Positions 50,086 to 56,679 of a DNA stretch of 64,000 nt are shown here, in pieces (within the stretch, counting starts at the first letter, position 1; each line of letters opens with the position of its first letter). The notes below the pieces were generated by a model that was not told the origin of the DNA, searched no databases, and was given only the letters and a program-made list of their open reading frames with translations. Made by a program: the position numbers and the translations under genes. Origin of the DNA: a virus; IMG/VR virus record IMGVR_UViG_3300028372_000005, positions 1-64,000 of that record; one strand, given 5' to 3'.

Positions 50086-53000
50086 GTGTCCCTTCCGTAC
50101 AACACGCACAAAAATCTGCTCGAGAACCTCGAGGACTACCTTCGAGACACGCTCAACATCAAACAGGGCGACCGCGAGTTGGTCGTCAAGCGCATCGATA
50201 TGCCCTCGACCGAGTCGCACGACGACCTTCGGTCACAAAAGAGTGCCAAAATTCAGGGCATCTCCTACAAAAAACCCGTGCGCGCGACACTCGAGCTCAA
50301 AGTCGACAACAAGACCGAGGACACAGCGACCGTCACGTTGCTCGACCTGCCGCAGGTGACCACCCGCGGCACCTACATCGTCGAGGGCAACGAGTACAGC
50401 TTCCCGCTCCAAAAGCGCCTGCTTCCGGGCGTGTACACCCGTGAAAAACCAGACGGCACGATCGAGGCGTGGATCAACTCGTCGAAGGGTAAAAACCTTC
50501 GCCTCCAGCTTCGCGAGCAGGGCGACTTCGTGCTCGATACGGGCAAAAAGATCAACCTCCTGGCCCTGCTGGTCGGACTTGGCATCGATCGCCAGCGCAT
50601 CCGGCGGGTGTGGGGCGACGAGGTCTACCGCACCAACAAGGGCGCGCGGGGGGCCGGCAACGAGCTCGGGGCGCTCAAAAAGCTTTACGACTCTCTGCAT
50701 TACGACGGCGACGAAGACGTCGACAAAAAAGATGTGCCGACGCTGAGGCGCTGGCTGCTGAACTACTTCGAGGAGAACAGCGAGCTCGACCCGCAAAACG
50801 TCGAGATGACACTCGGCCGGGAAGCCTCGCGGGTGTCGGCCGACCTGTTCATGGTCATCACGAAAAAGATCCTCGAGGTCTCCCGCGGCGAGTCCGAAGA
50901 GGACAACCGCGAGTCGCTCATCCACAACGCGGTGTTCGACCTGAGCGATTTCGCCATCGAGCGGCTCAACCACCGCCAGTACCGCTCGAAGATCGCGCGC
51001 ACCCTGCAACGGAACCTGCAGAAATTCGACAAGGTCAGTGACGTCGTCCAGAAGCGGCTTTTCCAGGGGCCACTCGACTCGACGTTTACCCAGACATCTC
51101 TCGCCAGGATCCCCAAGCAGAACAACCCCATGGACCTGATGGCCTCCTTTTCGGAGATCACTTCCATGGGTGAGGGTGGCATCGAGACACGCCACGCGGT
51201 CAGCCGCGAGACGCGCGCGGTCGATCCGTCGCATCTGAACTTCATCGACCCGATGCACACCCCCGAGGGGCAAAGCCTGGGGACAAGTCTGCATCTGGCG
51301 AAGGGCGTCAAAAAACGCGGGAAGGACCTCGTCAAGAAGGTCTGGGACGTCAAAAAAGGCGAACAGGTCGAGGTGACTCCGCGCGAGATGTACATGAAGC
51401 CGACAGCCTTCGCAGAGTACTACAAGGAGGAAGATGGCCGTCTCGAGCCCGACGATGACGGTAAGATCAAGGTCAGCCACAAGGGAGAAATCAGTCGCGT
51501 CTCGCCCCACGAGGTGCGCTTTGCGATGCGTCGCACCACCGACATGTTCGGGTACAACTCGCTGGGGATGCCGTTTTTGTCACACAACAACGGCACCCGC
51601 GGGATGACGGCCTCGAAGATGCAGTCGCAGGCGAAATCGCTCGTCCACCGCGAAGTGCCCAAAGTCCAGGCCGCCATCGACGAACACTCCGGCGCCACCG
51701 TCGAGCAGCTCATGGGGAAGTTCAGCGTCCCCAAAGCCCCGGTCGACGGCAAGGTGGTCAAGCTCGAGGAGGATAACCTCGTCATCCGGGATGCGGACGG
51801 AAAGTCCCACAAGGTCAATTTCCCAAAAAGCTTCTGGCTCAATGACCACAACTTCCAGGACACCGAAATCACCGTCTCCAAGGGTGATCGGGTGACCAAA
51901 GGCCAGGCGCTGGGGGATACGAACTACACCAAAGACGGTGAGCTCGCGCTGGGGACGAACCTCAAAACGGCGTATGTGCCATACAAGGGTTTGAACCACG
52001 AGGACGGCGTGGTCGTCAGCGAGACGGCGGCCAAAAAACTCACCTCGATGCACGCCTATCAGAAAACGGTGCCGGTGGGCGACAACGAGGTCTTGAGCAA
52101 AAAGAAGTACCAGGCCTACTTCCCATCGCTGTATACCGCCGATCAGCTCAGCAAGCTCGACGACGACGGCGTGGTCAAAAAGGGCCAGCGCATCAAAAAG
52201 GGTGACCCGCTGGTCGTCAAGATGCGCAAGGTCGAAGAGGATACGGCCTCGAAGCAGCTCAAAAACATCAGCCGCCTTCTGACCCAGGATTTTCGCGACG
52301 GCTCGATCGTCTGGGACAAGGCAACAGAAGGCGTGGTCGAAGAGGTTCATCCCCGAAACGACGACGTACTGGTGGTCGTCAAGACCGAAGAGCGGGCGAA
52401 AGTCGGCGACAAGCTCGTTGGGCGTCATGGAAACAAAGGCACGATTACCACGATCATCGACGACGGCGAGATGCCTCGCGGCGAGGACGAAGAGCCCCTC
52501 GAGCTCCTACTCAACCCCAACGGGGTCATCAGCCGGATGAACACCGGCCAAATCATGGAGGTCACCGCCTCGAATATCGCCAACCACGACGGCAAGCCCT
52601 ACGTCTCCAAGCCCTTTGGGAAGAACCACTCCAAAGAGATTTTGGACGAGCTCAAAGAGCGGGGCTTAAAAGACCACAGTACGATCTACGACCCCACCGA
52701 AGACAAGCACATCGAGGGCGTGCTCGTCGGCGACCACTACACGCTCAAGCTCGAGCACAAGGTCGACAAGAAGCTTAGCGCCCGCGGCGCGGGGCCCGGC
52801 GAGGCCTATTCGCTCTCTGGCCAGCCCTCCCAGGGCAAGGGTAAGGGCGGCCGGTCCATCGGTCTTGGGGAGATGTATGCACTGCTCGCCCACGGCGCCG
52901 ATGCGAACTTAAAAGAGATGTACACCTTCAAGGGTGACAAATCGATCGAGCACTGGCGCGCGATTGAAAACGGCACGGCACTACCGAAGCCGAATATGCC

Positions 53001-56000: not shown

Positions 56001-56679
56001 AGGCCGCCAGGTCACCTACAAGAGCGTGCTTCCTGGCGCCCAACAAAATCCCCACAAGGGTGACGACTGGGCGCAGCGTATGGCGCTGAGCCGTATCAAG
56101 ACGACCATCGAGGAGGGCGGGCCGCAGGGGTTTTCAAGCTCCCGCACCTCCGGCTCCCCGTTCGCCGATCTGGCGCTTGGGCCGGGATCGAATCTTGTCG
56201 GTCCGGGCCTTGAGGCGATGGATAAGATGAGCTCGGCGTATTTCAGCATGCTCCCCTGGCCGACCGAAGCCAGCGCGATCGCGTGCCTGGTCGACATCGA
56301 AAAGGCCGCCGGCTTCACCTTCGAGCCCGTCGAGCTCGACGCGATCTTTGAGGCGCGCATGAGCGTCGACCAGATGATTGAGAAGATCGCCGAGCGCTCG
56401 ACGCCCGCAGAAAAAGAGCGCGCGCGTCGGTACTACCAGGAAAACAAAGACGAGATTTCCCGTAAGCGCAAGCTCCGTCAGCGCAAAATCCAGTCCGGCG
56501 TGCAGCGCAAGCGAAAGCGCATCGGCTCGCCCGGCGCCGGCTACCAGTACATCCACAGTGATGAGGAAGAAGATGGTTCGTCGCAGGGAGGCGTACGCCT
56601 GGGCGGCAATCCGAACTTCGACCCCAACGAGAATCCGCGATCGACTGAGAAGAAGCAGGACATGAAGAGGGTTACATGA
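50086..56679 (+). CDS. rpoBC: Fused beta-beta' multi-subunit-type RNA polymerase
   Basis: 2197 residues from GTG 50086 behind GAGGAGG. Beta signatures: HTPEGQSLG (from residue 391), YKGLNHEDGVVVSE, and GRHGNKG (779-785). The beta end (RSIGLGEMYALLAHGADANL) runs into beta' (GGLFDLETTGG, HIELAEPLPHP). Then come MPPKFRPVIELPG, the catalytic NADFDGD (1375-1381), GYLAKELTNSAADM, the second beta' zinc site (C1757, C1764, C1767 plus an upstream DCGT), and RATQLPMKSFHTGG. The N-terminal beta' zinc finger is missing. No alpha or sigma gene is in the window. It would transcribe phage genes. Its place in the virion module suggests a virion polymerase. Confidence 0.95.
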   Translation: MSLPYNTHKNLLENLEDYLRDTLNIKQGDRELVVKRIDMPSTESHDDLRSQKSAKIQGISYKKPVRATLELKVDNKTEDTATVTLLDLPQVTTRGTYIVEGNEYSFPLQKRLLPGVYTREKPDGTIEAWINSSKGKNLRLQLREQGDFVLDTGKKINLLALLVGLGIDRQRIRRVWGDEVYRTNKGARGAGNELGALKKLYDSLHYDGDEDVDKKDVPTLRRWLLNYFEENSELDPQNVEMTLGREASRVSADLFMVITKKILEVSRGESEEDNRESLIHNAVFDLSDFAIERLNHRQYRSKIARTLQRNLQKFDKVSDVVQKRLFQGPLDSTFTQTSLARIPKQNNPMDLMASFSEITSMGEGGIETRHAVSRETRAVDPSHLNFIDPMHTPEGQSLGTSLHLAKGVKKRGKDLVKKVWDVKKGEQVEVTPREMYMKPTAFAEYYKEEDGRLEPDDDGKIKVSHKGEISRVSPHEVRFAMRRTTDMFGYNSLGMPFLSHNNGTRGMTASKMQSQAKSLVHREVPKVQAAIDEHSGATVEQLMGKFSVPKAPVDGKVVKLEEDNLVIRDADGKSHKVNFPKSFWLNDHNFQDTEITVSKGDRVTKGQALGDTNYTKDGELALGTNLKTAYVPYKGLNHEDGVVVSETAAKKLTSMHAYQKTVPVGDNEVLSKKKYQAYFPSLYTADQLSKLDDDGVVKKGQRIKKGDPLVVKMRKVEEDTASKQLKNISRLLTQDFRDGSIVWDKATEGVVEEVHPRNDDVLVVVKTEERAKVGDKLVGRHGNKGTITTIIDDGEMPRGEDEEPLELLLNPNGVISRMNTGQIMEVTASNIANHDGKPYVSKPFGKNHSKEILDELKERGLKDHSTIYDPTEDKHIEGVLVGDHYTLKLEHKVDKKLSARGAGPGEAYSLSGQPSQGKGKGGRSIGLGEMYALLAHGADANLKEMYTFKGDKSIEHWRAIENGTALPKPNMPNSSKKFVSMLRGMGVNLEEDDKGDVKMAPFLDRHVRDISNGEIKDATALRAKDLKEEKGGLFDLETTGGLEGTKWSHIELAEPLPHPTFLKAIRDVTKLRGHEIDDLVGGKKGVVGGKLVAADKPGATTGGEGLRKLLKSIDPDKRLKEIKEKAPKASGSKLNKMHREARTLKNFKEKGVGLDEMVVDTIPVMPPKFRPVIELPGTGDISVADVNEHYRSTILMNNQLKALKGKKGLQKQRDKVRKSLFDGFSGSMGMSMGLVQDENVKGLAETVAGTNPKSGYFQKRLLKRRQDTSGTAVVGPDPDLDMDQIGVPEQMAWKIFKPHIKRELRGQGLTPLQAEQEIEDRTKLGNDALQRAMGDRHVMANRAPTLHKFSIMAFKPKLIPGHAVKLPVEVLGGFNADFDGDTFGIHVPATEEANKEAEDLLPSKNMYLPGRNREEMNPGLSHEYVLGLFKITRKGAAKSNTYDSPEEAIKAADTERIDWTDTVRISGIGKTTAGRCKVMAAVPEKLRDYNARLDNGKIKDFFKRIQKEEGDGAFKDTLGAWKKIAKSYAYTSGSSFLLSDMKDSAKLSRERDKLYADADRQVQSVRGDRRLSDEDRKKKVIDLYGEVDKYVKDKSIKIKGNDAGKSNNISDMVEAGARGNPDQVKQLVGSLGLMLNHRQETMEEPVRGNYAEGLSSSDYFAHLYSQRKGMIDKTQSVAGPGYLAKELTNSAADMKVTEKDCGTKEGRYEKVDGHLKDRVLADSVGSTTRGTVIDDSVLSSIEKLKKPKVKVRSILTCESTQGVCAKCFGYDETGSFPMVGKNVGISEVQALTERATQLPMKSFHTGGVATAETGLSNAFDRAQQILQMPENIKGKAVLAEVSGPVQKIKSSGYGGKVVVVSGKDHKIPQKLDVKVKIGERVKKGDPLSTGVTQSQDVLRLRGINDVQTQMRDDLHQTFSSAGVNLSKKNYEVTVKSLTDKVRVQDSGDSEKWVPGDYAKLPQVKAWNNQNPTGRQVTYKSVLPGAQQNPHKGDDWAQRMALSRIKTTIEEGGPQGFSSSRTSGSPFADLALGPGSNLVGPGLEAMDKMSSAYFSMLPWPTEASAIACLVDIEKAAGFTFEPVELDAIFEARMSVDQMIEKIAERSTPAEKERARRYYQENKDEISRKRKLRQRKIQSGVQRKRKRIGSPGAGYQYIHSDEEEDGSSQGGVRLGGNPNFDPNENPRSTEKKQDMKRVT

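Follow-up and report, generated by a model that had tools for sequence, protein, structure and literature searches.

A stretch of viral DNA of 64,000 nucleotides (the window; positions 1 to 64,000 of IMG/VR record IMGVR_UViG_3300028372_000005) carries, at 50086-56679, an open reading frame (ORF) in which the beta and beta' subunits of a bacterial-type RNA polymerase are joined into one chain. We propose that this enzyme of an uncultured tailed phage is catalytically competent and that virions most likely contain it, along with a helicase, and deliver it by injection, a reading to which we assign a probability of about 0.68. The analysis shows the following: the chain is intact, the active site is conserved, the N-terminal zinc-binding domain of beta' is missing, no alpha subunit is encoded, the gene order is shared with relatives, and the fusion appears to be ancestral to its clade.

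The ORF starts with a GTG codon at 50086, preceded by AGGAGG at a distance of 6 nt, and continues for 2197 codons without an internal stop to a stop codon that ends at 56679. The linear, 64,358-base record contains no other polymerase gene. GC content at third codon positions of the ORF is steady at 0.79-0.83 over residues 1-2040. Pfam domains occur in the order Rpb2_3, Rpb2_6 (E 3e-55), Rpb2_7, Rpb1_1, Rpb1_2, Rpb1_4 and Rpb1_5, with the Rpb1_1 match beginning late, at profile position 163 of 312. The best PHROGs matches, phrog_25354 (E 9e-117) and phrog_24349 (E 4e-81), are both families of unknown function. Against E. coli RpoB plus RpoC, the chain is 28% identical, with 2002 residues aligned; E. 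coli beta ends opposite residue 995 and beta' begins opposite residue 996, so no linker has been added between the two parts. The ORF, the Pfam order and this alignment bear out the initial annotation, which had described a single chain of beta followed by beta'. Long gaps relative to E. coli lie at beta 225-265, 278-354, 938-1049 and 1125-1178 and at beta' 68-99 and 947-1133, and the remaining gaps are short and fall at ends or in loops. Those outside beta' 68-99 we take to be largely insertions specific to the E. coli lineage. In the alignment, bacterial beta and beta' are retained almost completely, the exceptions being the zinc domain and the long insertions of E. coli, and the term "minimal", which the initial annotation had applied to the enzyme, is too strong.

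The alignment also upheld the reported intact catalytic motif and second zinc site. The metal-site aspartates D1377, D1379 and D1381, which correspond to E. coli D460, D462 and D464, are kept, and the catalytic aspartates, the lysines, the trigger-loop histidine and the zinc-2 cysteines are conserved throughout the fused clade and in all relatives whose sequences include these positions. With a DxDGD metal site and the two beta-barrel lysines, the chain can be assigned by its sequence to the two-barrel (beta/beta' type) RNA polymerases, and its beta' fold, including the trigger loop and the second zinc site, is that of this class. Four residues of the rifampicin pocket differ from E. coli in the alignment (Q513R, D516K, H526S and R529E), and the enzyme is therefore predicted to be rifampicin resistant.

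The beta' N-terminal zinc-binding domain, the remaining two-barrel feature, is absent from the window polymerase. It has been precisely excised: the gap at E. coli beta' 68-99 is the zinc-binding domain, and the zinc-1 cysteines C70, C72, C85 and C88 fall into this gap in the window polymerase, as the initial annotation had claimed, and likewise in all relatives covering it. The junction carries the motif GLFD..TGG..G..WSH, and in all 35 sequences that cover the region beta and beta' are joined and the zinc domain is lacking. The CxC...CxxC zinc cluster is present in the separate-subunit phage polymerases of YerA41, Rhizobium phage TM3_3_6 and Vibrio phage 1.031.O. This domain has been described as common to all multisubunit enzymes, but was not observed in AR9 (PMC7618050), and it is therefore not strictly defining for two-barrel polymerases.

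Residues 900-2060 were modelled with AlphaFold2 from an alignment of the window and its IMG/VR relatives (predicted local distance difference test score, pLDDT, 81.2; predicted template modelling score 0.76). The junction region reached a pLDDT of 88-95 nearly throughout. In a Foldseek search of the PDB, the best matches of the model were bacterial beta' chains (E 7e-62, template modelling score 0.69). The modelled beta' half thus has a predicted bacterial beta' fold with a confidently modelled junction.

Among phage records, the best coverage was obtained with Vibrio phages D69, D181 and D148 and Salmonella phage Arash. Arash and D69 are isolates, Arash on a laboratory Salmonella strain. In both, one ORF of 1525-1545 a.a. 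contains all of beta together with beta' to about 90 residues beyond the catalytic motif, which reads AADYDGD; the rest of beta' is encoded by a second ORF of about 610 a.a. In the aligned part, the window polymerase is 33% identical to that of Arash and 31% identical to that of D69. When the window protein alone was used to search IMG/VR, no matches were obtained, and an alignment including Arash and D69 was required; two such alignment-based scans yielded more than 30 loci. These fall into three architectures. The fully fused form, one chain of 2019-2052 a.a., is encoded by nine contigs (L007, L027, L032, L033, L034, L035, L036, L038 and L039) in addition to the window, which makes ten members from different metagenomes. 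The two-piece form, beta-beta'N plus beta'C, is that of Arash, D69 and others, with beta'C not seen in the sequenced stretch for a few of them. The three-piece form consists of three genes, with cuts equivalent to window residues ~1086/1101 and ~1465/1471. A misassembly joining two genes, named initially as a case that would overturn the finding, was checked and is excluded, because the single chain recurs in nine further contigs from other metagenomes; the fused single chain is real, and chance is excluded as its source. The joined beta-beta' form is a trait of a whole phage lineage and not a lone oddity, and within the Arash/D69-type polymerases the window and the nine contigs form a distinct, fully fused sub-clade. 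Matches labelled as "Enterococcus", "Staphylococcus" and "Listeria" phages from wastewater, as well as two genome records of Salmonella, resemble host rpoB/rpoC and were set aside as not phage; in the two loci inspected, L004 and L005, the beta and beta' genes are separate and the zinc domain is present. The scan of the genome collection found no relative among bacterial genomes, which therefore give no hint of the host.

The order of fusion and splitting was addressed with a tree built by a quick method and rooted on three bacterial polymerases, whose branch is long (2.11). The fully fused sequences form one clade (Shimodaira-Hasegawa approximate likelihood ratio test support 100), which is sister to the two- and three-piece forms together (support 97); the three-piece forms are one clade (support 95) nested inside the two-piece forms. 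Placing the fully fused clade with the L008 group was 14.9 log units worse (approximately unbiased (AU) test, p = 0.0496), and rooting on the L008 group was 17.9 log units worse (AU p = 0.013). Because the fused clade is sister to the split forms and the three-piece clade lies within the two-piece one, fusion was probably the earlier event, with two splits of beta' following it. The simplest history would be a single fusion with loss of the zinc domain, kept in full in the fused clade, followed by one split leading to the two-piece form and a second leading to the three-piece form. Alternatively, a two-piece ancestor was re-fused in the fused clade, at the cost of one extra step.

The alpha family PF01193 was found in none of 15 records, including those of D69 (186.7 kb) and Arash (180.8 kb, deposited as complete), in a search that was positive for 13 of 14 control genomes; the absence of alpha proposed for the window thus extends beyond it. 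The companion claim, that sigma is absent, cannot be supported by a 64 kb fragment, and split relatives do encode sigma: Sigma70 region 2 was detected in 11 of 12 split records versus none of three fused records (fragments of 64, 125 and 156 kb). A phage-sigma profile had no match in seven fused-clade records (fragments of 20 to 156 kb). Since the fused-clade records are fragments, the absence of sigma from this clade is a lead, not a result. Two region-4-like matches in G001, the record behind L007, contain little beyond a helix-turn-helix and were not counted as sigma; one of 28 residues lies above the cut-off (117576-117659) and a weak one below it (99259-99408). A scan for sigma-70 promoters near the polymerase gene was uninformative (5 found versus 2.7 expected).

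The case for packaging comes from Arash and from the neighbouring genes. In the reported mass spectrometry of the Arash virion, Gp206 tops the spectra (3516), followed by structural proteins and the capsid protein (1333), beta'C Gp216 (1210), helicase Gp217 (1148) and sigma Gp10 (467); in passages of the paper on these proteins, Gp206 is called beta and Gp216 beta', with no remark on the fusion (PMC10585845). In the window, the genes are ordered portal, helicase, polymerase, terminase, and the portal-polymerase-terminase block is conserved in G001, in G002 (the record behind L027) and in L039. The initial annotation had placed portal and terminase genes beside the polymerase; the terminase does lie directly downstream, but the portal is not adjacent, being located 4 kb upstream, and it was missed by Pfam and PHROGs and recognised by profile-profile comparison only. 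Because the Arash homologue dominates the virion spectra and the portal and helicase neighbours are shared, the window enzyme would be best read as a virion RNA polymerase.

From this evidence we infer that the window enzyme is active, that it is packaged in this particular phage, and how it might find promoters. The chain passes directly from the end of beta into the clamp of beta', without any extra linker, and has lost the N-terminal zinc-binding domain of beta'. Joining of the subunits most likely substitutes for the assembly function of the alpha dimer, as alpha is encoded by none of these phages. The polymerase, most likely packaged with the helicase, would be injected alongside the DNA, and the first phage genes could then be transcribed before, or without, the host enzyme. 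The loss of the zinc domain probably accompanies an altered grip on upstream DNA and a promoter-recognition factor of the phage's own. We advance only tentatively, as a possibility we rather doubt, the broader proposal that the clade packages and injects a single polypeptide of ~230 kDa, an entire bacterial-type polymerase core that can do without alpha and classical sigma and is close to the ancestral, fused-first form, later divided by gene splitting into the two- and three-piece enzymes of the sister phages.

Several points weigh against the virion reading or parts of it. No sigma-like factor was found in the fused-clade fragments, which leaves promoter recognition unexplained, and host alpha or sigma could bind to the fused enzyme. 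Placement of the fully fused clade with the L008 group was just barely rejected by the AU test. Packaging of the fully fused form is extrapolated from a split-gene relative that shares about 32% identity, and the Arash authors themselves, in their discussion of enzymes in the particle, allow that these may be carry-over from high expression (PMC10585845). The last point would suit an ordinary non-virion polymerase, made after infection for middle or late genes and located near the head genes by chance, as would the existence of such enzymes in phiKZ and AR9 (PMC7598289). We consider this unlikely, as the spectra of the Arash homologue exceed those of all other particle proteins, the major capsid protein included, and as the proximity of portal and polymerase is maintained across the clade, with a single polymerase gene set per record.

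Internal proteins of phage heads are often processed, and many head-module proteins of the window phage share a short N-terminal motif (described below) that is a possible processing or sorting signal. The chain might accordingly be a precursor that is cleaved into beta and beta' at virion maturation, with a two-chain working enzyme. The junction is, however, modelled as well ordered (pLDDT mostly 88-95) and is unsplit in all relatives, whose cuts are elsewhere, after residues ~1086 and ~1465, and we regard cleavage as very improbable. Scarcely more credible is membership in mReC, the lineage of Caudovirales encoding multi-subunit beta and beta' reported by Weinheimer and Aylward (2020): both groups are tailed phages in IMG/VR with beta and beta' recognisable as bacterial-like by sequence (PMC7481178), but the mReC capsid family PF07068/VOG11186 was found in none of 10 records, including Arash and D69, and the main-text account of mReC mentions no fused beta-beta'. 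In addition, the screen described there required matches to both beta and beta', of at least 800 a.a., with NADxDGD in the beta' match, and would therefore have failed two-piece relatives such as Arash, whose motif is AADYDGD.

The closest known enzymes, those of Arash (Gp206 + Gp216) and D69, have beta-beta'N fused at the same junction, lack the zinc domain and have the portal upstream and no alpha; they differ in that beta' breaks off some 90 residues beyond the catalytic motif, with the C-terminal part in another gene, and in that sigma is encoded nearby. The hallmark of this clade, a GLFD..TGG..W.H junction without the zinc domain, is present in the window, whereas a separate beta'C gene is not. 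The fused rpoB-rpoC of Helicobacter pylori and Wolinella belongs to a cellular enzyme with alpha, omega and sigma, and it retains the zinc domain. It resembles the window gene in making beta and beta' as one polypeptide (PMC9696931). Fused E. coli beta-beta' assembles in vitro into a functional enzyme, and in H. pylori such a fusion is in natural use (PMC1750930, PMC9696931). The phiKZ and AR9 polymerases are, like that of the window, phage-encoded, of the beta/beta' type and free of alpha, and they also lack omega; the zinc-binding domain of beta' is missing from AR9 as well (PMC7618050). In these phages, however, both beta and beta' are divided, without any fusion between the two, and phiKZ retains the zinc domain. 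The phiKZ polymerase functions without alpha (PMC8287921), and AR9/PBS1-type phages gave weak, partial sequence matches to the window polymerase. The polymerases crAss-like phi14:2 gp66, P23-45 gp64/gp96 and YonO share two catalytic barrels in one chain, and P23-45 gp96 and phi14:2 gp66 are virion enzymes (PMC10770324). Where their sequences are compared, these proteins are described as highly divergent from bacterial beta/beta' (PMC7481178), unlike the window chain with its 28% identity to E. coli; no crAss-like phage was among the 60 listed of 62 phage tblastn matches, and no such PHROG or Pfam family was matched. In the open-access literature, to which the search was confined (subscription papers lay outside it), we found no description of the fused, zinc-domain-less clade.

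The last ~153 residues of the ORF are not RNA polymerase. Homologues of this tail are separate genes downstream of the polymerase in eight other fully fused contigs, for example at 17791-18342 in L007 and 16421-16909 in L027, and it closes with a stretch of basic residues and the conserved KKKRIGSAAGGYxFI-like motif. The tail had no Pfam match, and its low-confidence model (pLDDT 66) gave no fold match. A profile search of the PDB returned mostly acyl carrier proteins at E 0.5-3, and with such values and such a model an acyl-carrier-like identity is unproven. Whether the tail is truly fused is evenly balanced. A sequencing or assembly error of one base would put the end of the true polymerase near residue 2044, and one extra base near 56210 would create a TGA just 5' of the ATG at 56218, with GAGG upstream, in keeping with the separate gene in all eight contigs; as sequenced, however, the frame is open and even in codon composition, and the window has lost the genes that separate polymerase and tail in L007, which makes a true fusion natural as well. 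Because a single extra base would undo the tail fusion, none of our conclusions rests on it.

Table 1. Coordinates in the window of the polymerase gene, its parts and its neighbours.
Feature	Position	Strand	Basis
Fused beta-beta' RNA polymerase ORF, 2197 a.a.	50086..56679	+	ORF call, Pfam, E. coli alignment
Beta-like part, residues 1-~995	50086..53070	+	Pfam Rpb2_3/6/7; E. coli beta end at residue 995
Beta catalytic lysines K776, K784 (E. coli K1065, K1073)	52411..52437	+	Identical in 36/36 phage sequences
Beta'-like part, residues ~996-2044	53071..56217	+	Pfam Rpb1_1/2/4/5; AlphaFold2 model
Site of missing beta' zinc-binding domain, GGLFDLETTGGLEGTKWSHIELAEP	53173..53250	+	E. coli zinc-1 cysteines in gap; no zinc domain in covering relatives
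Equivalent of first beta' split in three-piece relatives, residues 1086-1101	53341..53388	+	ORF boundaries in L015, L016, L017, L025, L026, L029, L030
Catalytic NADFDGD, residues 1375-1381	54208..54228	+	Sequence, E. coli alignment
Equivalent of beta'N/beta'C split in two-/three-piece relatives, residues 1465-1471	54478..54498	+	ORF boundaries in Arash, D69, others
Second zinc site C1701, C1757, C1764, C1767 (E. coli C814, C888, C895, C898)	55186..55386	+	Identical in 28/28 covering sequences
Trigger-loop histidine H1804 (E. coli H936)	55495..55497	+	Alignment
C-terminal tail, 153 residues (2045-2197), own ATG with GAGG upstream	56218..56679	+	Separate downstream gene in eight other fused-clade members
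Portal protein	43741..45981	+	hhalign to Arash/D69 portals, probability 100, E 5.8e-61
SNF2-type helicase, relative of Arash virion helicase Gp217	47339..48817	+	Pfam; 33% identity, E 2e-81
Terminase large subunit, 4 nt overlap with polymerase stop	56676..58253	+	PHROG 675, E 4e-64; 51% identity to L007 terminase

The N-terminal motif [MV][NQI]GL[LMI]K[VTIL]A occurs in 9 of 58 ORFs of the window, with 0.64 expected from its rate elsewhere in these proteins (P 2e-8; the 58 ORFs were hand-picked and include a duplicate). The genes concerned start, on the + strand, at 24157, 24861, 40488, 46295, 47043, 47339, 48814, 49239 and 49664, and their products are otherwise dissimilar except for one duplicated pair. 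Related fused-clade phages carry the variants MTVLMKVA, MSTLIKVA and AGMMKVA. As the motif is carried by the Gp217-type helicase, whose Arash relative is a virion protein, it may serve as a signal for sorting to the virion or for processing. At 48814-49663 lies an exact tandem duplication of 425 bp (428 identical bases in a run) that encodes a 130-a.a. glycine-zipper protein, and the gene at 49664 has the same leader and first eight codons as the duplicated gene upstream.

Elsewhere in the window, 30654-34556 encodes a DnaE-type DNA polymerase III alpha that contains an in-frame intein (Pfam Intein_splicing at 752-982; HNH matches). The thymidylate synthase ORF at 1678-3426 has an in-frame insert of an I-HmuI-type HNH endonuclease at about residues 160-386, in which no intein splicing domain was found. 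A phage-encoded transfer-messenger RNA with the tag DETNDDNVIYADFSQYGGAKTVAAAA (Rfam, 100 bits) lies at 26550-26971, followed by a tRNA match at 27213-27273.

If active alone, the window enzyme would be a near-complete bacterial-type core encoded by one gene, and a tool to probe the roles of alpha, sigma and the beta' zinc domain. The clade offers a natural series of the same polymerase in one, two or three pieces with fixed cut points. The tree suggests that in phage polymerases fusion can precede fragmentation, contrary to a view in which every split phage enzyme was cut directly from cellular subunits, and, since Arash is an isolate, the question of a virion polymerase can be tested now.

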